A DNA stretch of 34,038 nt from an uncultured Verrucomicrobiota bacterium (GTDB lineage: Bacteria; Verrucomicrobiota; Kiritimatiellia; RFP12; UBA3636), in NCBI GenBank assembly GCA_949285835.1, contig CASEAR010000063.1, positions 1 to 34,038 of the forward strand, in the 5' to 3' direction. Made by a program: the position numbers and the translations under genes. Below are positions 5,784-31,719 of the stretch, piece by piece. Numbering within the stretch: the first letter of the stretch is position 1; every line of letters begins with the position of its first letter. The notes under the pieces are model-generated. The model was not told where the DNA came from. It ran no database searches and saw only the letters and a program-made list of their open reading frames with translations.

Positions 5784-5793
5784 TTTCTCTTGG

Positions 5794-5830
5794 GACCCGC
5801 CGGTTGAAACATACCGGCGGGTCTTTTTTT
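5794..5830 (+). terminator. rrn intrinsic terminator
   Basis: A perfect 10-bp stem GACCCGCCGG / CCGGCGGGTC (5794-5803 and 5814-5823) with a 10-base loop is followed by seven T (5824-5830). It starts 11 bases after 5S. Confidence 0.95.
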
Positions 5831-5880
5831 GCTTCTTGCCCCGCCGTCTTACGCAGCGTTCGCCTTGGCGCTTCCCTCTC

Positions 5881-5902
5881 CAGCGGCAGCGCTTCCCGGT
5901 TC
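5881..5902 (+). repeat. 22-nt direct repeat, copy 1
   Basis: CAGCGGCAGCGCTTCCCGGT plus TC is identical to 6006-6027. It lies just past the rrn terminator and contains the self-complementary AGCGCT core. Function unknown. Confidence 0.7.
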
Positions 5903-6005
5903 CTCCGCATCACCTTGGAAAAGCCCGCTTTTTCCGCTCTTTTTTGCACCGGTCCCGCCGCTGTTTCTTGCCGCCTAATTCGGTGTCAGTCCCGCCTTTT
6001 TTCTG

Positions 6006-6027
6006 CAGCGGCAGCGCTTCCCGGTTC
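6006..6027 (+). repeat. 22-nt direct repeat, copy 2
   Basis: Identical to 5881-5902, 125 bases further on. The following sequence diverges at once, so this is a short dispersed element and not a tandem duplication. Confidence 0.7.
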
Positions 6028-7311
6028 AGCGGCGCCTCGGGGAAGGCCGCCGTTGTCCCCGCGCCCCTCTCGCACCGCTTCCGCCGCCGCAATGCAACCC
6101 GGCGAAATGTCCGCAGATTTTATTACTCCGTTCCGTGACCGATCTGCGTCAGTGTTTAGAGTCGGAGCGCCGTCAGGGAATGGCGTGCAAGGGCCGGTAG
6201 TTCACGTGGAGGATGGGAATACCGCTTAGGAGTGTACTTCGGGCGTGCGAAGATGGGTATGGCGTATGTACGGCTTCGTTTTTAACGTGTAATGGAGCAA
6301 TCAAGATGCGTTGCCGGGTGGCGGAGGGGACGCATGATCTGTTCCCGAACGCGTGCCGATAGTCCGTAGTCGACATGCTATGTCTCTATCGGGTCGATGA
6401 GACGCGGCGGCTGGCGGCAGATCGAGTTTGCATAGCCAGTTTCAAGGCGGAACACGATTAAATCAGGCACTTGCGAAAGGGAGAACCTCGTCGCTTCCGA
6501 CCATGTTCCCGCGCCCCTCTTGCACCGGTCCCGCCGCCGTAATGCCGCTTTATGTATGAATGGGTCTGTCATTTGGACGGCTGACAATTGAATCCTTACG
6601 GGAAACTTGCGCAGCATATTGTGTTTTGGTGTTTTTAGACATTCCCGTTTGTCAGGCGGCCGCAAGGTGTTTTTCAACGCGGTTTGTTCACGCAGCCTTA
6701 TGTCTCGCCAAACTTTCGCCGCTGCAATCCGCGGCTGCGGATAGAAACAGCGGGCTTGTATTTTGCGGCAGAAAATTTTTCTGGGAAGTCACGCTATGTA
6801 CAGGCGCGAGCGTTTTTTGGTTGCTGCAGGGTCATTGGCAGACCATATTTTTGCGAAAGCGTATTTTGTTTTGCCGGTCATTATATTGGAGACAAATTGT
6901 TTAAGCGGCATCGTGTGAATGGAGCGCTGAATATAGTATGTATTTTTTAATCAGAAAGTTATGCGGTTAACAGGATTGGACGGGCGATGCTTTTTGACAT
7001 GTGTTCCGGCCGCACCGGCGTTTAGAATTTTCGATGCATTTTGTATCGTTATCCGAAACGGCTGGGATTTGCGCACGTTGTTTCGACATACTCTCAAAAT
7101 GTGTGCGGTAAATGTTTTCTGTTATTGTTCAGACGTAAATCCGGTTTTGATGGTGCCGGGTAAAGCGGTTCAGTGGTGAAGCGGTATTTTGCCGGGGAAT
7201 CTGCAAGCGTGTTTGTGTCAGGAGCGCCGTGTCAGGCGGGCTGAACGCCGGTTATTGCCCGAATGCCGGATACATGTTAAAATCAGAGCCGAATTTCGAA
7301 AGGGTGTGTTT

Positions 7312-8538
7312 GTGAAGATTTTCAAGTTTTCTGCGATAAGGCCAGTTTCCGGTTTTGAAAAATCGATTGCTTCGCTGCCGTACGACGTTATGGATACGGA
7401 AGAAGCGCGCCATATGGCGGACGGCAACCGGGATTCGTTTTTGCATGTGGTTCGGTCTGAAATAGATTTGCCGGATGGCACGGATCCTCATTCCAGTCAG
7501 GTTTACGAGGCTGCCGGGCGGGCGCTGCGCAAGCTTACGGACGACGGACGCATGTTCCGTGAAGACACGCCTTCATTGTACATATACCGTCAGACGATGA
7601 ACGGACGGGCGCAAACGGCGGTCGTGGCGTGCTGCCGTATTGATGACTATGCGAACGGAACGATTCTGCGGCATGAAAAGACGAGGAAGGACAAGGAAGA
7701 CGACCGCACCAATCACATTCTTGCCACGAATGCGAATACGGGACAGGTTTTTCTGACGTATCGAGATCAAGGCGGGATAGACGCGCTTGTGAGGGAAGAG
7801 TGCCGTGCAGCGCCGCTTTACGATTTTACAGCGGACGACGGGGTGGGGCACACGGTATGGAAGGCCGCTGATCCGGATGCGATTGCCGCAGCATTTGAGA
7901 GTGTGCCGAAAGCTTATATCGCCGACGGGCATCACAGGTCCGCGGCGTCTTACAGAGCAGGGATGGAGAAGCGCAGGCTTGCGGGGGCGGATTTTGATCC
8001 GGATGCTGAATACAACAGGTTTATGGCATGCCTGTTCCCTGCCTCGCAGCTTAAGATACTGCCCTACAACAGATGTGTGCGCGATCTTAACGGGATGGAT
8101 GCCGGCGGTTTTTTGGAAGCGGTTCGCGGCACCGGGGCTTTTACGGTCTCGGAGACGGATGAAGCGGCGTCGGATAAACCGTGTTCGTGCGTGGTTATAA
8201 TTGCGGGGCGCAAATGGAAGCTGGAGTGGAATGTTCCGGATGGGGCGGATCCTGTTTCGGTTCTCGACGTCAGCTATCTGCAGGAAAATCTGCTTGCTCC
8301 GGTTCTTGGAATCGGCGATCCGCGTACGGATCCAAGGATATTTTTTGTGGGAGGGATCCGTGGAACGGGCGAGCTTGTGAAGGTCACCTCGGAAGGGCAG
8401 GCCGCAGCGGCGTTTTCGATGTATCCGGTTTCAATTTCGCAGATGATGGATATCGCGGACAGCGGCGGGATTATGCCGCCCAAGAGTACGTGGTTTGAGC
8501 CGAAATTGAGAAGCGGGCTGCTGGTTCACACACTTTAA
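7312..8538 (+). CDS. DUF1015 family protein
   Basis: A 408-residue cytoplasmic protein. The N-terminal block VKIFKFSAIRPVSG...IASLPYDVMDTEEAR and the central YIADGHHRSAASY (His207/His208) are signatures of the DUF1015 family, whose biochemical role is not established. Family members often occur next to serine-biosynthesis genes, which is not the case here. I place the start at the GTG at 7312, because the family begins with this K-I-x-x-F motif and a purine-rich AAAGGG lies about eight bases upstream. The frame stays open back to 7189, but those residues look unlike the family. It is followed 27 bases later by the Bax-inhibitor gene, so it is probably the first gene of a six-gene run. No signal peptide or membrane segment is visible. 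Confidence 0.85.
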   Translation: MKIFKFSAIRPVSGFEKSIASLPYDVMDTEEARHMADGNRDSFLHVVRSEIDLPDGTDPHSSQVYEAAGRALRKLTDDGRMFREDTPSLYIYRQTMNGRAQTAVVACCRIDDYANGTILRHEKTRKDKEDDRTNHILATNANTGQVFLTYRDQGGIDALVREECRAAPLYDFTADDGVGHTVWKAADPDAIAAAFESVPKAYIADGHHRSAASYRAGMEKRRLAGADFDPDAEYNRFMACLFPASQLKILPYNRCVRDLNGMDAGGFLEAVRGTGAFTVSETDEAASDKPCSCVVIIAGRKWKLEWNVPDGADPVSVLDVSYLQENLLAPVLGIGDPRTDPRIFFVGGIRGTGELVKVTSEGQAAAAFSMYPVSISQMMDIADSGGIMPPKSTWFEPKLRSGLLVHTL

Positions 8539-8565
8539 TAAAACAAAATAAATGGAGGTCGCTGT

Positions 8566-9234
8566 ATGCAGAGCAGTACGTTGTATAGGAAAGCGGAAGC
8601 AGCCGGGCGGGAGGAAGCCGTTTCGGGGGCGATGTATAATCTGATTCTCGGCGGGATGCTTGTCTGGGGGTTTGCAATTAATTTCCTGATGGTGAAGTAT
8701 CTGCCGGTTCAGGTTCTTGCGGTCAATCCCATTGTATTTCTGGTTGCGTTTCTGGCGTTGTGCTTCGGCGGAATATGGATTGTCAACAGGACGGAAAGCG
8801 CGGCAGTTGCGTTCATCGGTTATACGATGATTGTTGCGCCGATAGGGATTTCCGTTTACGCGAACGTTGCTGCTTCGGCGCGGGAGACGGTTATTCTTGC
8901 GTTTCAGTATACCTCTCTGATATCGATTGGGATGATGGCTCTGGGTACAATTTTCCCGGTGTTTTTCCGCCGCATTTCGGGAGCGTTGTTTATAGCGCTT
9001 CTTTTTGCATTCGCGGTGATGGTTCTTTCGATATTTTTCCCGTCGCTTGAGGCTGGAGGGTGGCTGGACAAGCTGATTCTTGTCATATTCTGCGGCTACA
9101 TAGGGTATGACTGGGGCGTTGCCAATTCGCTGCCGCAGACACCGCTGAACGCCATACGCGGCGCGGCGATGCTGTATATAGACATAATAAATCTCTTTAT
9201 CACGATACTCAGGCTTTTGTCGCGCCGTGACTGA
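8566..9234 (+). CDS. Bax inhibitor-1/YccA family membrane protein
   Basis: A 222-residue integral membrane protein with about seven hydrophobic segments, starting at residues 20-40 and ending near 190-215. The C-terminus (GYDWGVANSLPQTPLNAIRG, then AMLYIDIINLFITILRLL and SRRD) fits the family's closing motif, an Asp-containing helix followed by a basic RRD tail. In bacteria such proteins (YccA, YetJ) sit in the inner membrane. YccA modulates the FtsH protease, and YetJ has pH-sensitive calcium leak activity. Which applies here cannot be told. GGAGGT at 8554-8559, seven bases before the ATG, fixes the start. The 27-base gaps on both sides suggest co-transcription with the DUF1015 and zinc-ribbon genes. 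Confidence 0.9.
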   Translation: MQSSTLYRKAEAAGREEAVSGAMYNLILGGMLVWGFAINFLMVKYLPVQVLAVNPIVFLVAFLALCFGGIWIVNRTESAAVAFIGYTMIVAPIGISVYANVAASARETVILAFQYTSLISIGMMALGTIFPVFFRRISGALFIALLFAFAVMVLSIFFPSLEAGGWLDKLILVIFCGYIGYDWGVANSLPQTPLNAIRGAAMLYIDIINLFITILRLLSRRD

Positions 9235-9261
9235 GTTGGTGTTTGCGGATTCTGTAAAGGT

Positions 9262-9663
9262 ATGAAGAACTGCATTTCATGCCGCAGACCCATACATGAT
9301 GACGATGAGGTATGCGGATACTGCGGCGCCGTTCAAAGGGAGAAGGACGTTTTCGTTGATACCGGGGCGCCGTCGGATGTTCCGCACGCCGTTGACGCCG
9401 GGGTCGAGGAGGGCGGTTCTCCGCCGGCAGTGCGCTGTCCGAAATGCGGCGGTACGGATTGCGTACTTGTGCACAGAGTATCGGAGCGGGAGTCAGACAG
9501 CATGATTTCTCTTATTCTGTGGACGCTTTTGTGGACGCTTATATTTGGACCGACGGGGTTGCTGTGCGGATTGCTCGGTGTGGCGAATCCATGCGGTGAA
9601 TACCGGATGAGGACGGTGCGCCGGTATTACGCATGCAGGGACTGCGGGCACAGGTTTGTATGA
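9262..9663 (+). CDS. zinc-ribbon membrane protein
   Basis: A 133-residue protein of no named family that I can fix. It opens with a four-cysteine ribbon (C4-x2-C7, C18-x2-C21). A second ribbon is split: VRCPKCGGTDC in the middle and YYACRDCGHRFV at the end, with a hydrophobic hairpin (ISLILWTLLWTLIFGPTGLLCGLLG) between. The layout suggests a membrane-anchored metal-binding domain exposed on one face. An AAAGG-type ribosome site precedes the ATG. Its stop codon overlaps the start of the DUF2085 gene (ATGA at 9660-9663), so the two are probably translated together. The role is unknown; it may tether or sense for the glycosyltransferase group behind it. Confidence 0.75.
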   Translation: MKNCISCRRPIHDDDEVCGYCGAVQREKDVFVDTGAPSDVPHAVDAGVEEGGSPPAVRCPKCGGTDCVLVHRVSERESDSMISLILWTLLWTLIFGPTGLLCGLLGVANPCGEYRMRTVRRYYACRDCGHRFV

Positions 9664-15155: not shown

Positions 15156-17819
15156 ATGAAAATCAGCGGATTGTTTCTGTTGTCATTGGCCGCAGCGGGC
15201 GTGTTATGCCGCGGAGAAACACCGGCGAACAGGGTTTACGGGCCATGGAGATCCAGCCGTATCGGCGGCGGCGGATATGTTCAGACTGCCTCCTTTTCAA
15301 AAGCGGATCCGGGGCGGATATATCTGGCGTCGGATGTGGGAGGCTTCTTCCGTACGGATGACGGCGGCGTGACGTGGCGCATGCTTCACGGTGCGCTTCC
15401 TCCGGGGGAAGGATCCTCTCAGATACGCGGAATACTCGCGCACCCGTCTCGGAAGGACACGTTTCTTGTTGCGGCCGGTTCCGCGTGGGACAGCCCGCGC
15501 GGGATTTACAGGTCGGATGACGCCGGGAATTCGTTTGTTTTGACTCTGAAGTGCAGGTTTGAGGGCAATGACTGCACCCGTTCCGCCGGATTTGTGATTG
15601 CGTCTGATCCATCGTGTCCGGAGCGGGTTTATGCGGCTCCGGTGGGGGATGGTGTTTTTCGTTCGGATGATTTCGGTAAAACCTGGAGCAGCATAGGTCT
15701 CGAGTGCGTCTATCCCAAGGACCTGGTGGTGGACAGATCCAATCCGCTCAGGATATGGGTTAATGCGGCGGATAAGGGAAGCAGGACGTATTCGGATTGC
15801 GGAGTCAAAAAGAATTTTCGTCACGGCCTGTTCATGACGGAGAACGGAGGGGAGGAGTGGATTTGCGTCAACGATTCAGAAGTGCCGGATGAAATGGTGC
15901 AGGATCCGGTGAATCCGCAAGTGCTGCATGGGACTTTCCGCATGGTACCGCAGCTGCGACGCTCTTTTGATAACGGGAGGACATGGTCCGCGTACGACAA
16001 TCCGGAGATTTTTCCCAGACCCGGCGATGCTCGCGCAGACGGGACGTATGCGGCGCTGGCTGCCGGGCAGGACTTTATCATTGCCGCCGGACATGGGGGG
16101 AATTTTTACAGGCTTGAGGCTAACGGCGGCGCGTGGTCTAAACTTCCGGCTCCCGTGATTAACGAAGGGGACTGGTTTGCCGCGGCGACGAACCGGATTG
16201 AGCGGCACTTTGGATCCGCACTCGGGTTTGCTGCAGTTTCTCCGCACGATGCGGACAGATGGCTGTTTACCGACTGGTATGCGTGCTACATCTCGCCGGA
16301 TTCGGGAAAGACGTGGAATTTGTCGGTTGACGGCATAGAGATGACGGTGCTGCACTGTCTGGCGCAGGATCCGTCCAGACCCATGCGGGTTCATGCCGGT
16401 ATGGCTGACGTCGGATATTTTCGTTCAGACGATGGAGCTGAAACTTTTCCGCTGTGGGGCCGGCACGGTAAGATCAGCAATAACATAAAGCACATATCGG
16501 TCTGTCAAAGTGAGCCGGATTCGGTGTACGCTGTAGGCCCGGCGACGTGGAAGTGGTGTGCAAATCAGACCTTTTATTCGGCAGACGGCGGGGCAATGTG
16601 GAGACGGCCTCTTCAGCGCGGTCTTCCGAATCTGGATGACGGGCGCAATCTCAGGTGCAACACGATATGCGTCAGCCCGTCGAGACCAAACGAAGTGTAT
16701 CTTGTCGTTTCCGGCGTCGTAAGGCCGGGGGAGGGCGGAGTGTACCGTTCCGCCGATTACGGGGACAGCTGGGAGTGGATGGGGAACGGGCTTCCGGAAA
16801 CGGAGCTGTTCCGGTCGGACATATGGGTCTCGGGGCCGGAGCTGGCTGTGTCTTCGGACGGTTCCGCTGTGGCGATGTCAAACGACAGCGGGCGAGGGTT
16901 TGTGTACGATCCCGCAGAAAAAAGGTGGACGGAAATTGATTTGCCGTCCGCAGCGAACTGCGTTGCGGCGGATCTGCTCGTTCCGGGGAGATTCTACTGC
17001 GCGCTCAAGGGCGCGGGACTTTTCCGTTCTGATGACGGCGGCCGTTCGTGGAAGAACATTTTTGGCGGGTTTGCGGCGTATGTAGCTTCTGACGCTGCGA
17101 AGACGGGCAGGATAGCCGTTTCGTCCGGCAGCGAATATTATGTATCCGAAGATGCGGGAGAGACGTGGGTGGAAATACCGGAAGGTCTGCCGTTCCGGCA
17201 TTTCCGAAATGTTTTATGTTTTGCCGGGGACCGTCTGGTTTGCGGCACCGGCGGTTCCGGTATATTCTGGACCTGCATTTCCGGGCTCTCCGGCCGGAGG
17301 ACGGCGCGTTCCAACGGCGCTTTCTTTGGCATGGTTTCCGGCGGTAGGAAGGACGAGGGCGGTCTGCTGTCCAACGGAAGCATGGCGGCCGGCGGTGAGA
17401 AGCCTTTAGGATGGAGTATTTTCAATGCCGTTCCGGGGAAGCGTGAAATGTCCTCCGACAGCGCAAAATTCGTCTCACCACCCGCGTCAATGTGCATTAA
17501 AGTCGACGGTGGAGAAGCTGCTGTAAACCGCCGTCTGGACGGCAATCAGTCCGGAAAGCTTTTGAAAGTTGAATGCAGTGTCTTTCTGGAGGAAGGGATA
17601 GAGTCTGCCGGGATTGTGCTGCAGTGTTTTGATTCGGATTGGAAACAGATTGCGTGGAAACAGTCTGCGGGCACTTCCGAGAAGGGGAAATGGGTTCGTC
17701 TCAGCGGAACGGCGGAAATACCAGGCGGAGCCGGCAACGTCATGTTTACGCTCACCGCGAAGGGCCGCGGCAGGGTATGGGCGGATGACGCTTTCGCGTC
17801 GGTTTTGCCAAGAGACTGA
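15156..17819 (+). CDS. secreted Asp-box (BNR) propeller glycosidase-like protein
   Basis: An 887-residue exported protein. Residues 1-20 are a signal peptide; the Cys at 19 lacks a lipobox. About eleven Asp-box motifs of the type S-x-D-x-G-x-T-W recur, among them RTDDGGVTW, RSDDAGNSF, RSDDFGKTW, RSFDNGRTW, SPDSGKTW, RSADYGDSW and RSDDGGRSW. These indicate a beta-propeller of the sialidase/GH74 (xyloglucanase-like) kind spanning about 30-720. The two-lobe length fits GH74-type double propellers better than sialidases. The final 150 residues (NGSMAAGGEKPLGW...RVWADDAFASVLP) resemble a CBM4/9-type jelly roll for carbohydrate binding. I could not place the catalytic acids with certainty. It follows the SGNH gene by 103 bases on the same strand and may be co-expressed. 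Confidence 0.8.
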   Translation: MKISGLFLLSLAAAGVLCRGETPANRVYGPWRSSRIGGGGYVQTASFSKADPGRIYLASDVGGFFRTDDGGVTWRMLHGALPPGEGSSQIRGILAHPSRKDTFLVAAGSAWDSPRGIYRSDDAGNSFVLTLKCRFEGNDCTRSAGFVIASDPSCPERVYAAPVGDGVFRSDDFGKTWSSIGLECVYPKDLVVDRSNPLRIWVNAADKGSRTYSDCGVKKNFRHGLFMTENGGEEWICVNDSEVPDEMVQDPVNPQVLHGTFRMVPQLRRSFDNGRTWSAYDNPEIFPRPGDARADGTYAALAAGQDFIIAAGHGGNFYRLEANGGAWSKLPAPVINEGDWFAAATNRIERHFGSALGFAAVSPHDADRWLFTDWYACYISPDSGKTWNLSVDGIEMTVLHCLAQDPSRPMRVHAGMADVGYFRSDDGAETFPLWGRHGKISNNIKHISVCQSEPDSVYAVGPATWKWCANQTFYSADGGAMWRRPLQRGLPNLDDGRNLRCNTICVSPSRPNEVYLVVSGVVRPGEGGVYRSADYGDSWEWMGNGLPETELFRSDIWVSGPELAVSSDGSAVAMSNDSGRGFVYDPAEKRWTEIDLPSAANCVAADLLVPGRFYCALKGAGLFRSDDGGRSWKNIFGGFAAYVASDAAKTGRIAVSSGSEYYVSEDAGETWVEIPEGLPFRHFRNVLCFAGDRLVCGTGGSGIFWTCISGLSGRRTARSNGAFFGMVSGGRKDEGGLLSNGSMAAGGEKPLGWSIFNAVPGKREMSSDSAKFVSPPASMCIKVDGGEAAVNRRLDGNQSGKLLKVECSVFLEEGIESAGIVLQCFDSDWKQIAWKQSAGTSEKGKWVRLSGTAEIPGGAGNVMFTLTAKGRGRVWADDAFASVLPRD

Positions 17820-18151: not shown

Positions 18152-21100
18152 TTATTTGCTGCCGTTTTCCGGGGTCCACTCTATGAGTCGCACGCCGTAC
18201 GGTTCCATTTTGAAACTCCCGGAGTCCGAAATCGGCTCGCCGGAAATAAGGTCGACGCCTTTCTTCATCTTTACATTGAACACCGGCGCGATGTCGAATT
18301 CCTTGTTCCCGATTTCATTGACAATGCGCGTCAGGTATACGCGGCGTCCGTCCGGAGCCGTCCATGGTACGGTGAGGGCCTCGCAGCCGGATATTGAAAG
18401 CGGCGGGGGATCTGTTTCGACGGAGGCGGCCGCTTCAAACCACGGTTTCATTATCTCGTAGTACTTTTCTTTAAGTTTGTCTCCGTTTTTGCCGATTGCG
18501 TCAATGTCTTCCTGTGTAAGCAGGATTGACGGGTCAGGGAACTTCCAGACTGTACCGGCTCCCAGATTAAATTTTACGCAGCCCGGTACTCCGTCTATCG
18601 GACTTACGGAATTCTGAGGCGGAGCGAGCCAGGGAACCTCCCTGTCGCGGCCGGACGGTTCTTTCAACAGGCTGTCGCCGATAATGACGGCCGTCCCTCC
18701 GCTGCGTATCCACGATTCGACGCCCGCGACGGTGCTTTCGCGCGCATATTCTGCACGGGGCAGCACAAGGATGTCGTATTTGTATTCATTGAGTCTGCCG
18801 GCATTGAGCCGTTTCTCCGTGACATAGTCCACGGCGTAGTTCATGTCTTTGATTATGTTTACAGCGGGGGTATGCACTTCGAAATACCTGCCGGCTCTCG
18901 GGAGGACGGGATCCGGGTAGAGGACGACGAACGGGGATCTGGGCATTTTCTGGAATGCCATCACCTGCGGCAGCAGCCGCTGAATGTTGTATGCTGCAAG
19001 CGCATTTTCGTGCAGTCCGGATGTTCTTGAGATAGCCTGGGCGAATGAATCTTTGGGATGCCAGGCCCAGATGTCGATGCCGGCAAGTCCCATGAACGCG
19101 CCTTTCCAGATATCCACGCGGGCGCGCTCGCCGCCGCCTTTGAACTCGAGGTTCACCATTGGTTTTTCGGGAGACAGGCAGCGCAGCCAGTCATAGTACG
19201 GTTTTGCAAAATTCAGCGTGCCTGAGTCCATGCCTGCGATTTCGCTCATGTCCGTCACGCCTTCCTGATCGACATTGAACGGCGGGCAGAACCAGCCCAT
19301 CTGCATATTGTTCAATTTGACTTCCACAGGTACAGTTGGGTCGTAGCGCCGTATTATTGACTTCTGCCATTTGAAGTGTTCGGTTAGGCGGTTCAGGTTG
19401 AACCACCAGTAGTCCGTCTGCCTCGGCGAAACCTCCTGAGTCCATGAGAAGTCCGGATTTATGTCTTCAGCGGAAGCGTAGCTTGTGCCCCACGCCTCGT
19501 TGATCTGCTCAATTGAACCGTACCGTTCGAGCATGAGTTTCCTGAAAAGAGCCTTTGACCTCTCGCCGTAATTCAGGTACCCTGGTTCGTTGGCGAGCCA
19601 TATTGAGTTTATCGCGGGGTGTCCGGCCACCTGCTGCATGGCGATCTCCAGATAACTCTTTATGAACTCATTTGCGTCGGGATCCTCAATGTCGTAGTTG
19701 TACATGCCGGCCATGCTTCCGCCCTTGAGCACGGCGCCGGGGTGGTCATCGAAAAACCATCCCGGGATGCTGCCGGTGGTGAGTCCCAGGTCCACCTTTA
19801 TTCCAAGGCGGCTGCATTCATTGAGAAAGTTGGTCATTACGGTGAGCGGGCCTTTGTTGAAGTCGGACACGCGGAGCGGGCCGTCTTCCCTTTTATTCTT
19901 TCCGAACACGCTGTCGGGTGCGGTACTCACATGCACGAGGTTGAATCCCATATTCCGCATTTTTTCCAATTCCGGAAGGAACGCGAAAACGCAGTGTCCT
20001 ATCATGAAGACAGGGGTGTCTCCGTCCCAGAAATATCCGTCCCGCAGACTCAGACGTCCGGCCGGGCGCGGCATTATATCGGCGTTTACGCCGCTGTCCG
20101 GGTCGGCAATAAGCGCCAGCAGCTGCGCTTTCGTTTTCGGCACCTGAGCGGCGCAGTACGCGTGATTCTGTCCAATGAGTTCGTATTCGAAACAGTCAAT
20201 GCGCGACTGTAGCTGTCTGACGGTCTCACGCATTGCCTGAATCATCAGCCCCGGGAGAGAGCAGTCCGCCCCGGCGGCGACGGCTTTCTCTTCGAGTTCA
20301 AGTAGTTCGTCAAGCCATGTTCTAATGTCCTGTGCCCAGGATTCGGCGGTTTCCCTGCTGACTATCTTTATTCCGCCGGCGAGGTAAATCTGTTCGATAT
20401 TTTCGGCCGGGGTTTCATATCTGCCGATTGTTTCACCATCGGCATTGTAAATTGTGATTACGGGGAGGTACCAGCCGTTTTCCAGTCCTCCGTCCGAAGT
20501 CTTCCACTCGGCTGACATGGAATACGTGCCCATTTTCTCAAGCGGAGCCTTAAGGATCTTGACAGATTCCTTGAGTGTGTCCATGTTGCGCAGCGCGATA
20601 TGGACAGTTCCGTCCTTATGCAGATCCACGGGCAGTTTGTACGTGAAAACGACTTTTTTCTGAAGCGCGCTGCTTGTTTCGGAGAGTTTGCGCACGTTGA
20701 TGTCAATATTGAAGTCCTCCGGGCGCCATCCGCGTTCTTTCCAGCCGCAGTCGAAGATGACGAACGGCTCTCCCGACGAGATTTGCCGTGCGGCGTCTCC
20801 CCATACGGATGCGGAACCGGCGGAGTTTCCTGCGATCATAAAGTATTTCGGGTCTTTGGATGCAGTCCGCAGGATCATACCCGCCAATTCGTCTGGTTTT
20901 CGCTCCGTTCCGGGGAGTTTTACTTCGGTCAGCCCCGTTTTTGCGTCGTATTTTGCGGAGGCGGGCCACACGCTGCGCGCGGCGGTTCGCATTTCCGGAG
21001 CGGAGCCAGTGTTCCCGGAACCTATTGTCCAGCCGCCGGAAACGATGGAGTTTATGCACACGTTTGTATCTCCGGCCAGACCGCTCAGGTTCCCGTCGGG

Positions 21101-22405
21101 GTCGTTATCCCAGATTACAGCATTGACGTTGGTAACGGCGTAGTTCGCGTGGGTGAAAATAGCGCCGCCCTGAGGCGCGCGGTTCCCGATATATATACCG
21201 TTGGTTATAACGGCGGCTGGTCTTGCTGCGTGTGAGAACTGCTGGAAGATGCCTCCTCCGCGTACTTTCGCGGTGTTGCCTGCAAAAAGCAGATTGCGTC
21301 CGTAAAATCCTCCGATATGCCCGAAAAACGCGCCGCCTTCGGCAGCCGCGCGGTTTCCGACGAATCGGCAATCCCTCACGAGTTTTCCAGAACTGTTATA
21401 GTAAATCATTGCACCGCCGGTTTTGGCGGTATTGTCAAAAAAGTCGCATGACTCAAGCATCAGCCCTGGGTTGTGCTGTGCAATGCCGCCGCCGGAATTT
21501 CCGGCCGAATTCCCGACGAAAGTGCAGCGGTACATTCTATCCCAGGCCCACCAGCAGTTGGCCGTCATAACGCCGCCGCCTTTCTGTCCGGCTGAATTGT
21601 CCAGAAACAGGGAATTCCGGATATGGCAGTCTGCCACGGAATATACAAACGCCCCGCCTCCGGAATCCGATGCGTGATTTCTTCTGAAAACGCAATTGTC
21701 CACGGACATTATCCTGCCGTCGCTGATTTCGGTAATGTTTCTGGCGTATATGGCGCCGCCTTCCGACGCGGAGTTGTCCTCGAACAGCGTGCCGCTCACA
21801 TGGATTCCGGTGTTTGTCACGGCGATTGCGCCGCCTTGTACGGCGAAGTTCCCGCGGAACACGCAGTTCGAAACGATCGCGGCCCCGTTATCTGCTGTCC
21901 TGACTGCAAGAATGCCCCCACCCATGCCGTCAAGACCCGCTCCCCCGGCGAATCCGTGCCGCACATGCACTCCGTCGAGAATGGAACCGGCTTCGGCCCG
22001 AACCACGTGGAAAACATTGTTGGACGGATTGCCGTCGCCCTGTATCTCCCCGCTCAGAACAGCCTGCCATTTTTCCGGATTGCGATTTTCCAGTGAGTCC
22101 GAACCTGGCTGGAATCCGCCGCAGACAGAGACGCCTTTCGGAATGATGAAGGAATCAGTCCTTGATTTGCCGGGCAGATATACCGCCGGAGCGAGACGTA
22201 TCTGCATGCCGCTTTCTGCGTTCTGCAGGGCCGTCTGCAGATCGGTGCATGCGTTTGCCCAATCACGGCCGGATCTGTCCCCGGAGGCGCCTGGATCGAC
22301 GTAAACAATTCCATCCGCATATGCGGCGCCGGACGCGTGCAGGATCCCGCATACACATAGAGTGAACGATTTAGCTGCAAAACGGCATAAAGAACGGTAG
22401 TTCAT
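18152..22405 (-). CDS. secreted beta-helix / GH42-like glycosidase fusion
   Basis: A 1417-residue exported protein. Residues 1-31 are a signal peptide. Residues about 33-450 form a right-handed beta-helix of the polymorphic outer-membrane/pectate-lyase-like type: it opens VYVDPGASGDRSGRDW and repeats GGAI/GGGI turns followed by CxFxxNxA coils at least eight times. A middle region (about 480-760) looks like beta-sandwich plus a helical linker. Residues about 770-1200 are a TIM barrel of the GH42 beta-galactosidase kind, with the acid/base in WLANEP (Glu940) and a nucleophile in VNLEFKGGG (Glu1087). An amidotransferase-like domain (DYVTEKRLN...VLPRAEY...GGTAVIIGD) follows, as in GH42. GAGGAT about 11 bases upstream of the ATG serves as ribosome site. 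It lies 157 bases behind the glycine-rich gene and probably shares its promoter. Target sugar unknown. Confidence 0.85.
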   Translation of the reverse strand: MNYRSLCRFAAKSFTLCVCGILHASGAAYADGIVYVDPGASGDRSGRDWANACTDLQTALQNAESGMQIRLAPAVYLPGKSRTDSFIIPKGVSVCGGFQPGSDSLENRNPEKWQAVLSGEIQGDGNPSNNVFHVVRAEAGSILDGVHVRHGFAGGAGLDGMGGGILAVRTADNGAAIVSNCVFRGNFAVQGGAIAVTNTGIHVSGTLFEDNSASEGGAIYARNITEISDGRIMSVDNCVFRRNHASDSGGGAFVYSVADCHIRNSLFLDNSAGQKGGGVMTANCWWAWDRMYRCTFVGNSAGNSGGGIAQHNPGLMLESCDFFDNTAKTGGAMIYYNSSGKLVRDCRFVGNRAAAEGGAFFGHIGGFYGRNLLFAGNTAKVRGGGIFQQFSHAARPAAVITNGIYIGNRAPQGGAIFTHANYAVTNVNAVIWDNDPDGNLSGLAGDTNVCINSIVSGGWTIGSGNTGSAPEMRTAARSVWPASAKYDAKTGLTEVKLPGTERKPDELAGMILRTASKDPKYFMIAGNSAGSASVWGDAARQISSGEPFVIFDCGWKERGWRPEDFNIDINVRKLSETSSALQKKVVFTYKLPVDLHKDGTVHIALRNMDTLKESVKILKAPLEKMGTYSMSAEWKTSDGGLENGWYLPVITIYNADGETIGRYETPAENIEQIYLAGGIKIVSRETAESWAQDIRTWLDELLELEEKAVAAGADCSLPGLMIQAMRETVRQLQSRIDCFEYELIGQNHAYCAAQVPKTKAQLLALIADPDSGVNADIMPRPAGRLSLRDGYFWDGDTPVFMIGHCVFAFLPELEKMRNMGFNLVHVSTAPDSVFGKNKREDGPLRVSDFNKGPLTVMTNFLNECSRLGIKVDLGLTTGSIPGWFFDDHPGAVLKGGSMAGMYNYDIEDPDANEFIKSYLEIAMQQVAGHPAINSIWLANEPGYLNYGERSKALFRKLMLERYGSIEQINEAWGTSYASAEDINPDFSWTQEVSPRQTDYWWFNLNRLTEHFKWQKSIIRRYDPTVPVEVKLNNMQMGWFCPPFNVDQEGVTDMSEIAGMDSGTLNFAKPYYDWLRCLSPEKPMVNLEFKGGGERARVDIWKGAFMGLAGIDIWAWHPKDSFAQAISRTSGLHENALAAYNIQRLLPQVMAFQKMPRSPFVVLYPDPVLPRAGRYFEVHTPAVNIIKDMNYAVDYVTEKRLNAGRLNEYKYDILVLPRAEYARESTVAGVESWIRSGGTAVIIGDSLLKEPSGRDREVPWLAPPQNSVSPIDGVPGCVKFNLGAGTVWKFPDPSILLTQEDIDAIGKNGDKLKEKYYEIMKPWFEAAASVETDPPPLSISGCEALTVPWTAPDGRRVYLTRIVNEIGNKEFDIAPVFNVKMKKGVDLISGEPISDSGSFKMEPYGVRLIEWTPENGSK

Positions 22406-25147: not shown

Positions 25148-28100
25148 ATGACAAAACTGTTTCGTTTTTCATGTTCCTTCCGCAATCTGTTCTTTTGCGC
25201 TTTTCGCAAGCGGTTTCTTTTGGCGTTGGTTTGCGGCGGCGCGCTTTTAGTGTCAGCCGCCGCATTTGCGGGGGATGCGTGCGATCTCCTACGTGACGAC
25301 GCGGCGCGGGTGCTAGTTTCGCGTTCTTCGGGATGGGTTTCATATAGAGAAGATGACGGCGGGAAGGGTGTTTTTACGCTGCGTTCCGCCAAGAAGACGC
25401 AGAATCAATGGGATCTGCAGACATCTGCGGAATTGCGCGGTTCTGTCCGCAAGGGCGAAACGGTAGAAGTGTCCTTCAATGTCCGCGGCAAATCGGCGGG
25501 AGGCGCTGCGCGGATGGTGCTCAAAGTGCAGGACGCTTCGCAGGAGGGGCTGCTGAGGGAGGAGATCCGCTGTACGGAAGAGTGGAACCGGGTAAGCCGC
25601 GTTTTCCGCGCCGGGAGGGACTACGCCGGGGGGGAACTTTCTGTGGTGTTTTTCTTCGGTCTTTCGCGTCAGGTTATTGAGGTTTGCGGGCTGACGGTGC
25701 GTTGTGCTGGCGGGCCCACACCCGGGGGCGGTGCGGAGGGGCCGTCCGGCGGGGGCGCGGGCGCAGTGGCGGGGCCTCCCGAAATTGACCGGCCTCTGCC
25801 GGAACTCCCGCCGGAACCGGAGAAGATGACTCTGCCGGCTTTGAGTCAGGGAGAGCGCGGCGTCAGGCGCTACGCCGTGCTGGAGCTGGACGGTGTGACG
25901 GCGGCGGGGAAGAATGGCGGGCTGCATCCGAAGATCGCGTTAGTTGCGGATGATTTGGAGAAAGGCGGCATTCAGGCGTCTTTCGGCGTGATCGTGCGTT
26001 CGCTCGAAGACGGCGGCCCCGCGTATGCGGACTGGTTCAAACGGACCGCCTACCAGAACGGAGGCCTTTTCGAATTTACGCTGCGGGGCTGGGATGACGC
26101 CGCGGACATCGAGTTCAACGGCAGGCGTTATGCGTCGGAGTTTGCGGTGCCGGATGAGGCGTTTCAGCGCCGCCGTCTGGAGGAGGCGCAGCGGTTTTTC
26201 CACGAAAGGACGGGGCTTAGCCTACAGGCGTTCAGCGTTCCATTCAGCGGCACGCACGACGTTACCCGCGCACTACTGAGGGAATACATTGCGATACGCA
26301 GCTGGATTTACGGGAATACCGGCAGCACCGCGGGCAAATTTGTCTTTCCGAGGACGATTGCTCTCGAAAGCCGGGCCGGGTGCGTGGCGTACGACGAGTT
26401 CCTGATGCGTTATACGCCGCACCGGATGGACAGGCTCATGGTGCTCCAGGGATTTCCGGCATTGTGGGACGAATCATCGCGTGCGCATTTCCGTCTCGTT
26501 GTCGAACAGCTCAAGCGCGACGGATGGATATTCACTACCCCGACGCAGTATCTGGACGCAACGGGTGCGGACCGTCAGCTGAGGCGCGACGCGGAAGCGC
26601 ACAGCAGGCGCTATGTACCGTTCTCCATGGGCGGAAACGCCCCGAATACGGGCGCGGCTGATCTGAGCGGGCTCAATGCGGGCGGCGTCAAGCGCCTGCA
26701 CCTGGACGCGGACGGCCGCATCGTGGATGCGGATGGACGGCGCGTGCGCCTTTTCGGGACGAACCTTACGTTCGGGAACTGTTTCCCGTCCGAAGAAGAA
26801 TCCGCGCGCCTCGCCGTAAGGCTTGCCAGCATGGGGATGAATATCGTGCGCATACACCATCACGACAAACACTATGCGCCCGCCGGGATATGGAAAAAGG
26901 GGGAGAAGCTCAACGAGTTCGATCCCGGGCAGATGCGCCGTCTGGACCGGCTCCTCGCGGAGCTGTCCAGAAACGGCATATACGTGGACCTTAATCTGCA
27001 CGTTTCCAGAGAACACTGGAAGGGGCTTGTGCTTGACGACGGGCTTGCGGACGATAAAGCCCGCGACGGCGTGCTGCCCAAATACGGCAAAGCCCTCGAC
27101 AAGATAGACCGCAGGTTCATAGACCTGCAGAAGAAGTTTGCAGTCGATTATCTCGGCCATGTGAATGAGTTTACCGGAATGCGTTATGCCGACGACCCGG
27201 CGATTGCCATAGTGGAGATCAACAACGAAAACACTTTGCACGATCTGCGCCCGGAGGAACTTCCGGCGTCTTACGCCGGTCCCATCCGGAAGCGCTGGAA
27301 TGAGTGGCTTCGGAAAAAATACGGGGACACCGCGGCGCTGCGGGCCGCCTGGGGCGGAGACGAACCGCTCGGGGCGGAGGTTGCCGTATCGGGGCCGTCT
27401 GCGGAAGGCCCGGAGTACCTGAGCATTGAGTCGGAGGCTCCGGACGAGGCCACGGCCCGGCTTCTGCAGAAACCGCCGCAGACCTGGATGGCGCAGCTGC
27501 AGTGGCGCGATCTGGATCTTGCGGACGGGCAGCTCTACACGCTCTCTTTCCAGTACCGTGCGGACGCCCCCCACACCGCGCCGCTTTCCGTGCGGCGGCA
27601 GATCGCCGGATGGGAGAATCTCGGGCTGTCCGAACAGATAAGCTTCAAGGAAGACTGGCAGACCGCCGTGTATTCTTTCACGGCCCGTGCGCCCGTGCCC
27701 GGGAAGTCGCGCATCGACATCGTGATGGGCGGGTGCCCTCCCGGTGCGTTTCAGATACGCGGTTTTTCGTTGAGGCCCGGCGGGCGCAAAGGGCTTCTCG
27801 ACGGTGAATCGCTTGAAGACGGCACGGTCGGCTTTTCGGGTGTGCGCATCGGGATGACCGAACGCGGCAGGGACTGGAAGCGGTTCCTTGCCGAAGCGGA
27901 AAACGCCTACGTGTCCGAGATGACGGAATGTGTGCGTTCCACGGGATATGACGGATTTTTATTTGACTCTCAGGCCAGTTACGGCGGCTTGTTCGGGCTG
28001 TTCCGCGAAGCGCGGAGCGGTTTCATAGACATGCACAGTTACTGGCAGCACCCGTCTTTTCCGGGACGCGGCTGGGATATGGCGGATTGGAACATAGGCA

Positions 28101-29152
28101 ACAGCGCGATGAGCGCGTCGCCGGAGGGCGGCGCGAATCTCGGTTCGCTTGCCCATACGCGCGTTGCCGGCCTGCCGTTCGGCGTGAGCGAATACGACCA
28201 TGCCGCGCCAAACGAGTACGTTTCGGAAATGTTTCCGATGATAGGGAGCTATGCCGCGAGGCAGGATTGGGACGTGATTATACAGTTCGACTGGGGGAGC
28301 GCCGGGGAAGGCTGCGGATATGTTGACACGTTCTTTTCGCTCAGCTGGAATCCCGCCAAACTGTCGATGGTTCCAGTGGCCGCGCTTCTCTTCCGCGCCG
28401 GGGCCATGCCGCCGGCCGGTGCGTCCGGAGTGCTCACCATTCCGGCGGCGGAGCCTGATGAGCTGTCCCTGGACAAAGGCAGCATCTGGCGTATCTGGGG
28501 CGATGCCGGCAAGGCGGATGACCCGGGACTCAACAGGCGCATCGCCGTGCGGCTGGATCCGCAGAGTCCGGCGTCTGCGCCCGCGCGGTACACGGAGACA
28601 AATTCCGGGGAGGAATCCCCCGCGCTTATCCGTTGGGAGCCGGGCGCTCCGTATTCGGCCCTGTCTGAACGCGCAATGGTCTGGACGGGCATGCTGAAAG
28701 GCGAGATTAAATCGGAACGCGGGATGCCGGGCTTTGTGTTCCGTCCGGATGCATCCGTGGACGGTAGCCCCGTATTCGGCACGATTGCCTTGGCTGCCAT
28801 ACCCGGGGACGGGGAATACGAGCCCATTGGGAAGGCCCGGCGGCATCTGCTTGCCGCGTGCGGGCGCGTGGCCAACACGGACATGGGGTGGAACAGCGCC
28901 CGCACCAGCGTGGGTGTCAGATGGGGCGGGGCGCCTACGCTGTGCGAGACGGTCCCGGGCAGCGTGCGTCTTGCAGTGCCGGGGAGCGGGCAATGGCGCG
29001 TTTGGGCGCTCGACGGCAAAGGGAACAGGCTGAAGCGCATCAAATCGATGCGGAAGGGTTGCGAGCTGCTGTTCCGCATAGGGCCGGAGGACAAAACCAT
29101 ATGGTACGAAATAGAGTCGCCCGCCGCCGCGAACGGGGAGCCGGGGAAATGA
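25148..29152 (+). CDS. secreted CBM / inactive deacetylase-like / GH5-like glycosidase
   Basis: A 1334-residue exported protein. A basic, hydrophobic signal (about 1-41) is followed by a jelly-roll carbohydrate-binding-like domain (60-185) and a Gly/Pro linker (188-232). A polysaccharide-deacetylase-like domain (245-475) is aligned along its length with the protein at 31869, but its catalytic positions are lost: LDD is LDG (248-249), HHGYTH is LRGWDD (312-317), APGN is VPFS (364-367) and QGHP is QGFP (Phe436). Then comes a GH5-like barrel (about 505-1130), starting LFGTNLTFGNCF, with NIVRIHHHD, acid/base IEINNEN (Glu694) and nucleophile GVSEYDH (Glu1015). A beta-sandwich (about 740-905) is inserted between the two acids. 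A C-terminal beta domain closes the protein. The stop overlaps the LacI start (ATGA). It probably hydrolyses an extracellular glycan. Confidence 0.85.
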   Translation: MTKLFRFSCSFRNLFFCAFRKRFLLALVCGGALLVSAAAFAGDACDLLRDDAARVLVSRSSGWVSYREDDGGKGVFTLRSAKKTQNQWDLQTSAELRGSVRKGETVEVSFNVRGKSAGGAARMVLKVQDASQEGLLREEIRCTEEWNRVSRVFRAGRDYAGGELSVVFFFGLSRQVIEVCGLTVRCAGGPTPGGGAEGPSGGGAGAVAGPPEIDRPLPELPPEPEKMTLPALSQGERGVRRYAVLELDGVTAAGKNGGLHPKIALVADDLEKGGIQASFGVIVRSLEDGGPAYADWFKRTAYQNGGLFEFTLRGWDDAADIEFNGRRYASEFAVPDEAFQRRRLEEAQRFFHERTGLSLQAFSVPFSGTHDVTRALLREYIAIRSWIYGNTGSTAGKFVFPRTIALESRAGCVAYDEFLMRYTPHRMDRLMVLQGFPALWDESSRAHFRLVVEQLKRDGWIFTTPTQYLDATGADRQLRRDAEAHSRRYVPFSMGGNAPNTGAADLSGLNAGGVKRLHLDADGRIVDADGRRVRLFGTNLTFGNCFPSEEESARLAVRLASMGMNIVRIHHHDKHYAPAGIWKKGEKLNEFDPGQMRRLDRLLAELSRNGIYVDLNLHVSREHWKGLVLDDGLADDKARDGVLPKYGKALDKIDRRFIDLQKKFAVDYLGHVNEFTGMRYADDPAIAIVEINNENTLHDLRPEELPASYAGPIRKRWNEWLRKKYGDTAALRAAWGGDEPLGAEVAVSGPSAEGPEYLSIESEAPDEATARLLQKPPQTWMAQLQWRDLDLADGQLYTLSFQYRADAPHTAPLSVRRQIAGWENLGLSEQISFKEDWQTAVYSFTARAPVPGKSRIDIVMGGCPPGAFQIRGFSLRPGGRKGLLDGESLEDGTVGFSGVRIGMTERGRDWKRFLAEAENAYVSEMTECVRSTGYDGFLFDSQASYGGLFGLFREARSGFIDMHSYWQHPSFPGRGWDMADWNIGNSAMSASPEGGANLGSLAHTRVAGLPFGVSEYDHAAPNEYVSEMFPMIGSYAARQDWDVIIQFDWGSAGEGCGYVDTFFSLSWNPAKLSMVPVAALLFRAGAMPPAGASGVLTIPAAEPDELSLDKGSIWRIWGDAGKADDPGLNRRIAVRLDPQSPASAPARYTETNSGEESPALIRWEPGAPYSALSERAMVWTGMLKGEIKSERGMPGFVFRPDASVDGSPVFGTIALAAIPGDGEYEPIGKARRHLLAACGRVANTDMGWNSARTSVGVRWGGAPTLCETVPGSVRLAVPGSGQWRVWALDGKGNRLKRIKSMRKGCELLFRIGPEDKTIWYEIESPAAANGEPGK

Positions 29153-30177
29153 CGGCGTCTGTGCGGAGTTTGCGTGTGAGGCAGACCGACGTCGCACGGG
29201 CGTCCGGAGTATCCCGTGCGACCGTGAGCCGCATCCTCAACAATTGCACGACCGGGTTTTCCGTGACGCCGGAGGTGCGTGCGAGAGTGCTCGATGCGGC
29301 GTCAAAGCTCGGCTACAAACCGGACCTGGCCGCGAGGGCGCTCCGCCGCCGGAAGCCGGACGGGCTCATCGGCTGGCTCGGATGGACTTATCCGGAGGGC
29401 TTTTCTGAGAGTTTCCTGCGCACGCTGTCCGCGGAACTTCCAAAGCACGGGTTAGTGCTTTCTCCGACGTTTCTGCCTCCGGAGACAGACGCATTTTCCG
29501 TATTGCCGTGGTGGAGGATTGACGCCGCCATAGTTACCGATGTGACGCTGGGAGACCCCGTAATTGACGCGCTTGAACGGGAGGGCATCCCGTATATCAC
29601 GGTAAACTGCGAACGCGGCGAGAGCGGGGTGGCGGTGCGCATGGACGATGAGGGAGGGATGAGGCAGGTGTGCAGGCATCTGCTTGCGCTCGGACACAGG
29701 CGCATAGCGTATGTGGAGCGCAATGCCTCGGCCATGCGCTCTCATGCAAGCGTGGGCCTGCGCCGCATGGTGTACGAGGATTCGATGGCGGCGGCGGGGC
29801 TCGAGCCGGTAAGGCGTGCCGGCGGGCAGCCGTGGGTCGCGGACGAACGAGGGGAGCTGGTTCGCGGTGCGGTGCTTGAGGGCGGTGCTACGGCGCTCAT
29901 ACTGTACAGCGCGTCCGCGGCGCTGTTTGCTTACGATGCGCTTCTGTGCGCGGGACTGCGGGTCCCGGAAGACGTCAGCCTGGTCTCGTGCCATGACGCA
30001 TACCCGCTTCAGCATCTGGGGAAAGGGATCACGGCTGTGGTGCTCAATGCTGCGGAAGCGGCCCGCGCATCTGCCGAGATTGCGGCGCAGATCATCTCAT
30101 CGCCCGGTGAACGTCACATGGACAGGCTTCTTCCGGAACGGCTCGAACTTCGAGGCTCCACCGCTCCGCCGCGCTGA
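29149..30177 (+). CDS. LacI-family transcriptional regulator
   Basis: A 342-residue regulator. Residues 10-32 (VRQTDVARASGVSRATVSRI) are the LacI helix-turn-helix, followed by TPEVRARVLDAASKLGYKPD and LAARALRRR, the hinge region. The rest is the periplasmic-binding-like sensor fold, with DDEGGMRQVCRHLLALGHRRIAYV and a DVSLVSCHD strand. The frame is open upstream inside the enzyme gene, but the ATG at 29149 begins the domain correctly and overlaps the enzyme stop by ATGA, implying coupled translation. As a local regulator co-transcribed with a glycosidase, it probably senses a sugar released by the locus and controls the promoters at 24745-24781 and/or 25044-25073. That link is inference. Confidence 0.92.
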   Translation: MTASVRSLRVRQTDVARASGVSRATVSRILNNCTTGFSVTPEVRARVLDAASKLGYKPDLAARALRRRKPDGLIGWLGWTYPEGFSESFLRTLSAELPKHGLVLSPTFLPPETDAFSVLPWWRIDAAIVTDVTLGDPVIDALEREGIPYITVNCERGESGVAVRMDDEGGMRQVCRHLLALGHRRIAYVERNASAMRSHASVGLRRMVYEDSMAAAGLEPVRRAGGQPWVADERGELVRGAVLEGGATALILYSASAALFAYDALLCAGLRVPEDVSLVSCHDAYPLQHLGKGITAVVLNAAEAARASAEIAAQIISSPGERHMDRLLPERLELRGSTAPPR

Positions 30178-30240: not shown

Positions 30241-31719
30241 ATGAGAATCTGGAAATTAGTTACGGCTTACGCGGCGGCAAATGCGGCGTTTTTAGCTCTC
30301 GCGGTGGACGGCGTATGGTGCGGGCCGGAGTCCGGGGGCAACTGGAGCGACCCGGCGAACTGGGAAGATGGCGCCGTTCCGGGACTGTCGGAGGGCGATA
30401 CCTCCGTGATACACGCGGTTGCCGGCGATGCGCGGGTGGTTCTGGATATTCCCGTCACGCTGTCCAGTCTTGAGTTCCACCGAACATTGACGTGCGCAGA
30501 TGGCGGTTCAATGACGCTCAAAGGCGCGGACGGCGGCCCGGCATACGTCTCCACCATGTCCAAAGGAGGCTCCATAGGCGGGGAACTTTCCTGCGGATGG
30601 ACGCTTCTGTCCGATCTTGAGCTGGAGCTTCGCACGACCGGATACAACAGGATGGGGCCGTTCTCCGGCGCTTATAACATACATGTCAACCGCGGCGGAT
30701 CAAACCAGACCCTGTACGACACATCCTCGTCGCCCGGGTTCTTTGGCGACTGGCATATCTATTACGGAGGCTTCATGTCCGGCGGCGATCCTTTCGGATC
30801 GGAAACGGGCGGCGTGCGCCGTATCCACCTTTACAACCGCGCCGCATTGAAGATCAACGGAAACGGTACCCTGAAGAGCAACCGGGCGCTCCATATCGAC
30901 GCCACAGGCGGAACGCTTAAGCCCAACGGCAGGGCTTTGATCTTTCCGATGGGAAACGACTGGCTCACCGGCGAGGGCACCGTCTTCATGACGGATGACG
31001 GGAATTACGGAGGATCTTTCAGCGTGGGCGGGACGAATGCGAACTTCAGCGGCTCTTTCCACATCGGCGAACTAAAATCCGACGGTAACGCCGTCCCCGC
31101 CAAACTTATATTCACGGAAACGGCGTATCTGCCGGAAATGAAGGAGATTTTCCTGCGTACGACGAACGCGGTGTGGAACGTCGCAGCGTGTCCGGACGGG
31201 TTTGTTCTCGGCAGCGGGCAGACTCTCTCCGGCTGCGGCACTGTGGACGGCAGCGTCGTCCTCGACGGTGCGGACGCCGCTATCATCCCGGGCTTTTCGT
31301 CGCAGGGCGAATCGTACATGGAAGGCCCGCTTGCCGTAACGAGCAATCTCACCGTCAGAAGCGGGGCCCGCATTGTGTTTGCGGTGCCGTATTCGGAGGA
31401 TGGCGATTTGCCCGGAGCTGAAGCGGCGATTGTTGTAGGCGGCAGTGCGGATCTTGATGGGAGCGTCGTTTCGCTTGTTATGCCCGAATCCGAAGACGGG
31501 GAGCCGGTGCTCGATCCGGACTCCGGCAGCGCATTCTGGGAAGAAGACCGCGTCTGGCCGCTTATCCGTTTCGCGGGCGGCGCCGGTTCGGTTCGCGGCC
31601 GTCCCGCCGTTGCAGACGGAGACTTTTACAAAGGGTCGTTTGTTGCAAGCCTGCGCGACGGCGTGCTGTGGCTTGAGTTCCGGAGAGGACTTGGCGCCAC
31701 CGTGCTGCTTTTAAGATAA
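30241..31719 (+). CDS. secreted beta-strand-repeat (autotransporter-associated-like) protein
   Basis: A 492-residue exported protein. A signal peptide covers about 1-22. The mature part begins DGVWCGPESGGNWSDPANWEDGAVP, a Trp/Asn block shared with the glycine-rich protein at 22563 and typical of autotransporter-associated beta-strand proteins in PVC bacteria. The rest is rich in G, T, S, N and V, with short strands and ends in a LGSGQTLSGCGTVDGSVVLDGADAAIIPG element found in that family. No beta-barrel or clear PEP-CTERM follows; the C-terminus is GLGATVLLLR. AAGGAG at 30228-30233, eight bases before the ATG, fixes the start. It lies 63 bases after LacI, so it is probably in the same transcript. 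A surface-structural role is likely. Confidence 0.75.
   Translation: MRIWKLVTAYAAANAAFLALAVDGVWCGPESGGNWSDPANWEDGAVPGLSEGDTSVIHAVAGDARVVLDIPVTLSSLEFHRTLTCADGGSMTLKGADGGPAYVSTMSKGGSIGGELSCGWTLLSDLELELRTTGYNRMGPFSGAYNIHVNRGGSNQTLYDTSSSPGFFGDWHIYYGGFMSGGDPFGSETGGVRRIHLYNRAALKINGNGTLKSNRALHIDATGGTLKPNGRALIFPMGNDWLTGEGTVFMTDDGNYGGSFSVGGTNANFSGSFHIGELKSDGNAVPAKLIFTETAYLPEMKEIFLRTTNAVWNVAACPDGFVLGSGQTLSGCGTVDGSVVLDGADAAIIPGFSSQGESYMEGPLAVTSNLTVRSGARIVFAVPYSEDGDLPGAEAAIVVGGSADLDGSVVSLVMPESEDGEPVLDPDSGSAFWEEDRVWPLIRFAGGAGSVRGRPAVADGDFYKGSFVASLRDGVLWLEFRRGLGATVLLLR

Follow-up and report, generated by a model that had tools for sequence, protein, structure and literature searches.

A secreted glycosidase of an uncultured Verrucomicrobiota bacterium was found to contain a CE4-like polysaccharide deacetylase domain that has lost its metal ligands and its catalytic His. 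The protein is encoded on a stretch of 34,038 nucleotides (contig CASEAR010000063.1), and the whole of this stretch is called the window here. Sequence comparisons and structure predictions make it fairly probable that the domain is a CE4 pseudoenzyme, which was derived from an intact fusion and has been retained as a folded, non-catalytic module of a multimodular glycosidase.

Loss of the catalytic residues in the fused domain

A free CE4-like protein is encoded 2.7 kb downstream of the glycosidase gene, and the original prediction had proposed that the fused domain is homologous to it. This was verified, and the similar region was longer than had been claimed. BLASTP aligned residues 88-468 of the fused protein with residues 98-472 of the free protein (35% identity over 382 residues, E = 6e-72), a sequence similarity that is far beyond chance. 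Because the alignment spans an N-terminal carbohydrate-binding module (CBM) as well as the deacetylase, the common unit consists of both modules and not of the deacetylase alone. The listed open reading frame (ORF) of the free protein starts at 31824, and an in-frame ATG at 31869 is a plausible start. In Pfam the free protein matched PF10096 (DUF2334) with a score of 27.9 vs. a cut-off of 26.0. No PF10096 match was obtained for the fused protein; despite this, the alignments make the homology of its domain to DUF2334 proteins clear. With the free protein as query, a direct sequence search of the PDB was uninformative and a profile search gave marginal deacetylase matches only, and an NCBIfam search yielded nothing useful. 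The free protein had been called an active paralogue; its motifs are indeed intact, and it can be regarded as active in this sense only.

Three of the four motif changes that had been described for the fused domain, LDD to LDG, HHGYTH to LRGWDD and QGHP to QGFP, were confirmed, whereas the fourth, APGN to VPFS, is not diagnostic. The Asp-His-His metal triad of motifs 1 and 2 is absent from the window domain (D249G, H313R, H317D), and the catalytic His of motif 5 is replaced by Phe (H436F) and, in a second copy of the protein in the same genome (C67), by Ser. Two further residues that are invariant in intact members were also exchanged (K246E and W311T). However, it had been stated that every catalytic position was lost, and this went too far: the first Asp of motif 1 (D248), R402 and Q434 are still present.

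Members of the family were gathered from the window's genome, from its order and from a 388-genome sample of its phylum, and about 57 members with intact motifs were inspected (17 from the order and, in the phylum sample, 47 rows that represent about 40 distinct loci). Wherever the positions were covered, these members had both Asp of the tandem pair, the His of motif 5 (Q-x-H) and the first of the two His of motif 2, and the sole exceptions were the two fused copies of the window genome, the window protein and C67. Motif 3 was found to vary freely among intact members (APGN, APCG, TAGN, SPFN, TPFN, GPHW and others). The change from APGN to VPFS is therefore uninformative with respect to activity, and motif 3 was rejected as a sign of a dead domain. 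A subfamily that is devoid of the second His of motif 2 carries a His in motif 3 (13 of 13 rows, vs. none of 34 rows with the normal His), which, judging from this distribution, looks like a moved metal ligand. The motif 3 His occurs in the forms GPHW, GPHA and GAHW (L134, L139, L142, L143 with two domains, L146, L155, L156, L157, L161 and L163). Both dead copies lack it (SVPFS in the window copy, CPSSG in C67), and thus a metal site rebuilt in this way is excluded for both.

A second dead copy and intact fusions

The second copy is a full-length paralogue of the window protein on another contig of the genome (C67). It has 45% identity to the window protein, its motifs read VFEG, CHHGWSG, CPSSG and LSGSP, and its GC (guanine plus cytosine) content of 56% equals that of the window and agrees with that of the genome. 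The exchange D249G is common to the domains of the window copy (C63) and of C67 and was found in no intact member, and few other new residues are shared by the two. Proteins with the same module order and with intact motifs (LDD, QHGWYH or QHGWDH, and QGHP) are present in two other genera of the family, i.e., in G004 (L022, 44%) and G002 (L023, 45%); the latter protein is split over two contigs, with its N-terminus apparently on L044. A separate fusion with the order CE4-CBM-GH5 and intact motifs was found in a genome of another family (G362, L149). The residues of both catalytic domains, which an active fusion of a CE4 domain and a glycoside hydrolase should possess, are intact in L022, L023 and L149, but not in the window protein. 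As fused relatives with intact motifs exist, independently also in L149, the deacetylase would have died after the fusion, which presumably began as a bifunctional deacetylase-glycosidase. A search of GTDB species contigs for further fusions gave no hit with the window protein as query and only L048 with the free protein; L048 is apparently the same contig as C72 of G004.

Two other arrangements were noted. At L149, positions 1685-9275 have an operon-like organization with a gene for a free CBM-CE4 protein, a GH10 xylanase-type gene that overlaps it by ATGA, and the CE4-CBM-GH5 fusion. On contig C20 (L013) an intact-motif relative precedes, in the same chain, a second module and the N-terminal part of a domain that is read here as GH10-like, while Pfam gave no GH10 match.

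In a tree of the CE4 domains, which was built without the motif columns, the four fused domains and one free relative formed a clade (support 100/99), C63 and C67 were sisters (84/84), and the free gene of the window fell outside the clade. The proposal that the fusion arose from a dead copy of the neighboring free enzyme was rejected, because intact fused relatives exist and because the fused domains group with G051a and not with the free gene of the window. Judging from the tree, the free gene is an old paralogue of the fused domain and not its parent. In a tree of the glycosidase parts C63 and C67 were also paired (89/92), and three stand-alone glycosidases without the module were located inside the clade. 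Monophyly of the four fused glycosidase parts was rejected (approximately unbiased test, p = 1.7e-102). Therefore, one fusion would require later losses of the module; a repeated gain would be the alternative.

The simplest order of events, which has moderate support and is derived from four fused sequences, would be an intact fusion, loss of the metal-binding Asp, duplication and separate drift. In the lineage of the window genome D249G would thus have preceded the gene duplication that gave rise to C63 and C67, and the other catalytic residues would have drifted in each copy separately.

Retention of the fold

The prediction that the fold had been kept without a metal site was borne out by structural modeling. 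An AlphaFold2 model of residues 238-470 had block means of the predicted local distance difference test (pLDDT) mostly above 90, and a CE4/NodB-like fold, i.e., a deformed (beta/alpha) barrel, is predicted for the domain. The best CE4 match in the PDB with Foldseek was 2c71 with a template modeling (TM) score of 0.77 on the target, 7fbw reached 0.73, and the structures 7bkf and 6hm9 of the pseudoenzyme BA3943 were among the matches. The two findings that had been named as a refutation, a metal site built anew in the window domain and a fold not shared with the deacetylase, were looked for and were not found. A kept fold with lost catalytic residues, as in CE4-type pseudoenzymes, is thus what was observed.

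The conservation pattern was compared with that of 17 live members. At columns that are invariant in these members, the window copy keeps eight of eight residues outside of the motifs and three of nine inside (Fisher p = 0.009). It also keeps 25 of the 30 residues at 80%-conserved columns outside of the motifs, which is within the range of live members. That all eight invariant non-catalytic residues were kept argues for selection on the fold. The picture is that of a relaxed constraint at the active site and, for the window copy at any rate, of a fold that has been preserved.

Possible roles of the domain

The ancestral protein would presumably have been a two-activity enzyme, deacetylating a polysaccharide and cutting the same polysaccharide. 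At present the dead domain would most likely space and orient the outer CBM relative to the barrel, and contacts between its old groove and the polysaccharide may persist. Deacetylation would probably be supplied in trans by the free paralogue downstream and by the GH10-type fused paralogue on C20, which both have intact motifs. The order of events, the absence of activity, the role in spacing or binding and the supply in trans are what we infer from these data. A more specific version holds that the deacetylase was converted by the post-fusion loss of the metal Asp, that it now serves for substrate recognition or as a spacer, and that neither paralogue can do without it; this version is tentative and is considered less likely than not.

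Several observations weigh against a retained module and against the proposed order of events. Only four fused proteins of the family are available, and they stem from draft genomes; the sister grouping of C63 and C67 is only moderately supported. C67 keeps only five of the eight invariant scaffold residues and 20 of 30 at the 80% level. On a fixed topology and scaled to their barrels, the dead domains have branches 2.4 times as long as the live fused domains do (95% range of 1.7-3.4 upon column resampling). Furthermore, the closest stand-alone glycosidases are devoid of the CE4 module, which may be a remnant on its way out. Relaxation explains part of the pattern, given this faster evolution and the loss of the module from sister enzymes.

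The loss of every catalytic position had been taken as an indication of selection for binding, but this overreaches in view of the faster evolution, the module loss in sister enzymes and the catalytic residues that remain. A dead domain under specific selection for the binding of polysaccharide, acetylated or deacetylated, would be in line with a fold and scaffold that were kept while the catalytic residues changed. CE4 folds also have a substrate groove, and two further CBM4-like modules show that the enzyme invests in binding. However, K246, W311 and both His, which belong to the groove, were replaced differently in C63 and C67, and almost no new residues are shared, which is not as expected from a common binding function. 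Selected glycan binding is a possibility that is regarded as unlikely.

A little less likely still is that the domain is simply decaying, i.e., that acetyl removal is covered by other genes and that the fused deacetylase erodes, persisting in frame ahead of a needed glycosidase. Decay would be in agreement with dead domains that, scaled to the barrels, evolve faster than live ones, and also with the identities within pairs: in the dead pair C63-C67 the CE4 domain has 38% identity vs. 55-60% in the barrel halves, while the respective values are 61% and 50-55% for the intact pair G004-G002. The stand-alone glycosidases without the module within the same clade and the lost scaffold residues of C67 also fit. 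On the other hand, both copies still have a complete, foldable domain after they diverged down to 38% identity, and C63 retains its scaffold residues to the extent given above, with a very high prediction confidence. A folded spacing or contact role is ranked first, with decay as its main rival and selected glycan binding as a further possibility.

That the domain was repurposed, with a rebuilt or metal-free site and a different activity, is very unlikely. A precedent is the metal-independent allantoinase PuuE with its NodB-like fold, which is an enzyme although it lacks the Asp pair of motif 1 and the second His (PMC10967932). The remaining D248, R402 and Q434 of C63, its new Asp residues at 316 and 317, and the related subfamily that seems to have shifted one metal His to motif 3 would fit to such a scenario, but neither dead copy has the relocated His, and the His of motif 5 was lost in both, to different residues. 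Lastly, an assembly or binning error, to which the draft genome of 143 contigs and the length of C67 of only 4.3 kb might point, has a negligible probability: the window gene is an uninterrupted frame of 1334 codons, the losses are many separate codon changes without frameshifts and are seen in two copies, C67 has the GC content of the window, and no sign of an artefact or of misbinning of C67 was found.

The glycosidase part and the module organization

The features of the window are compiled in Table 1. From the N-terminus, the glycosidase consists of a hydrophobic segment, a CBM4-like module, the dead CE4-like domain, a GH5-like barrel and a C-terminal beta domain. With Foldseek the N-terminal module matched CBM4-2 of the R. 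marinus xylanase (1e-9 range). The glycosidase part was predicted well (mean pLDDT 88.7). Its barrel comprises residues ~505-1100 and is interrupted by a further CBM4-like domain; a fold search of the glycosidase part revealed GH5 mannanases and CBM4, with 1gui as the best CBM4 match.

Enzymes of GH5 and clan GH-A are characterized by a (beta/alpha)8 barrel with catalytic Glu residues after strands 4 and 7. The two catalytic Glu are kept in the window protein as Glu694 and Glu1015, and none of 44 relatives, the two copies in the window genome among them, has another residue at either position. From its sequence and predicted fold the glycosidase part is a GH5-like barrel, as had been proposed, and belongs to clan GH-A. 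Pfam gave weak matches both to PF00150 (score 26.9 vs. a cut-off of 23.5) and to PF02449 (GH42), over different parts of the protein, and GH5 and GH42 are both candidate CAZy families. The stand-alone form of the glycosidase part is widespread across the phylum. The CBM4-like insert at 27413-27787 is kept in many stand-alone relatives phylum-wide and is missing in some, e.g., in L015.

Table 1. Features of the window around the fused glycosidase and the free deacetylase.
Feature	Position	Strand	Details
Multimodular secreted glycosidase, 1334 aa	25148..29152	+	ORF, Pfam, structure predictions
N-terminal CBM_4_9-like module, aa ~64-185	25337..25702	+	Pfam PF02018 (3.5e-9), BLASTP, Foldseek
CE4/NodB-like (DUF2334-type) domain without catalytic residues, aa 238-470	25859..26557	+	
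Motif 1, LDG, aa 247-249	25886..25894	+	Metal-binding Asp249 to Gly
Motif 2, TLRGWDD, aa 311-317, replacing WHHGYTH	26078..26098	+	H313R and H317D, both metal His lost
Motif 3 region, SVPFS, aa 363-367	26234..26248	+	Variable among intact members; no relocated His
Motif 5, QGFP, aa 434-437	26447..26458	+	Catalytic His436 to Phe
N-terminal half of GH5-like (clan GH-A) barrel	26660..27412	+	Pfam PF00150
Acid/base Glu694 in VEINNEN, N-terminal barrel half	27227-27229	+	
CBM4-like insert of the barrel, aa ~756-880	27413..27787	+	Second Pfam CBM_4_9 stretch, also in relatives; Foldseek
C-terminal half of barrel	27788..28447	+	Invariant Glu; GH5 mannanase fold matches
Nucleophile Glu1015 in SEYDH, C-terminal barrel half	28190-28192	+	
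C-terminal beta-rich domain	28448..29149	+	Predicted strands
LacI-family regulator	29149..30177	+	ATG overlaps glycosidase stop (ATGA); Pfam
Secreted beta-rich protein without Pfam match	30241..31719	+	Homologue directly before the free deacetylase in G004 (L048)
Free CBM4-like plus CE4-like protein, 478 aa	31824..33260	+	Intact motifs LDD, HHGYTH, QGHP

Gene neighborhood

The order of the glycosidase gene and the LacI-type gene is kept in G004 and G001. As the order of the genes for the beta-rich protein and the free deacetylase is conserved in G004 (L048), the window joins two separate conserved gene pairs. In G004 the corresponding genes for the fused and the free protein are on different contigs, and thus the closeness of the dead and the intact copy is not conserved there. 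Secreted beta-rich proteins without a Pfam match are encoded directly before CE4-like genes at 30241-31719 of the window and at L048:5834-7390, L117:706-2676 and L118:653-2395. At the C-terminus they have in common a short stretch of hydrophobic residues followed by Arg (VLLLR, ILCVR, LLIVR, VVIIR), which might possibly be a sorting or anchoring signal. Further upstream, the window encodes an 887-aa protein with sortilin/BNR repeats (15156-17819, plus strand), which is preceded by two glycosyltransferase 2 genes, and a 1417-aa protein in which Chlamydia-type PMP repeats are joined to a GH42-like glycosidase (18152-22405, minus strand; Pfam).

Significance and comparison with known systems

Different states of one process occur together in the family, which includes the free enzyme, fusions with an intact or a dead deacetylase, and the glycosidase on its own, and this allows direct testing of whether a dead domain still contributes to a polysaccharide-degrading enzyme. 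If the more specific version given above is true, intact fusion, dead fusion and lost module would form a natural series for the conversion of a catalytic domain of a glycosidase into a module for binding or structure. The results also hold a warning for annotation: the dead domain of C67 is called "Polysaccharide deacetylase" by Pfam (27.6 vs. a cut-off of 23.1), while the intact free protein obtains no PF01522 match. A narrow literature search revealed no paper describing a dead CE4 domain inside a glycosidase, and no paper on DUF2334 deacetylases was found in the library searched.

Related cases are known. The CE4 pseudoenzymes Ba0150 (4M1B), BA3943 (7bkf, 6hm9) and EcCDA (2VYO) have a NodB-like fold and have lost catalytic or metal residues (PMC10967932, PMC6115787). 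The window domain resembles them in both respects. In contrast to them, which are not described as parts of glycosidases, it resides inside a glycosidase, has intact fused homologues and falls into a distant branch of DUF2334 type. BA0330 and BA0331 are CE4-like proteins without detectable deacetylase activity and with a non-enzymatic role (PMC4505593), but they have kept the Asp-His-His metal site that is missing from the window domain.

Glycosidases with a deacetylase in the same chain have also been described. The xylanase Xyl has the organization GH11-CBM36-CBM36-CE4 and carries a CE4 esterase domain (PMC9165906; Xyl-CE4 is 7ax7). Like Xyl, the window protein is a single chain that comprises a CE4 domain along with CBMs and a glycosidase; unlike in Xyl, the CE4-like domain has no metal site, and the glycosidase is GH5-like instead of GH11. 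PelA combines a glycoside hydrolase and a deacetylase in one chain and acts on a self-made exopolysaccharide in the periplasm (PMC12022489). The likeness lies in the single chain for deacetylation and hydrolysis of a polysaccharide, whereas the setting of the window protein suggests degradation of a foreign polysaccharide. Taken together, the window protein is regarded as a clear case of a two-activity enzyme that lost one of its activities, for which well-known precedents exist.

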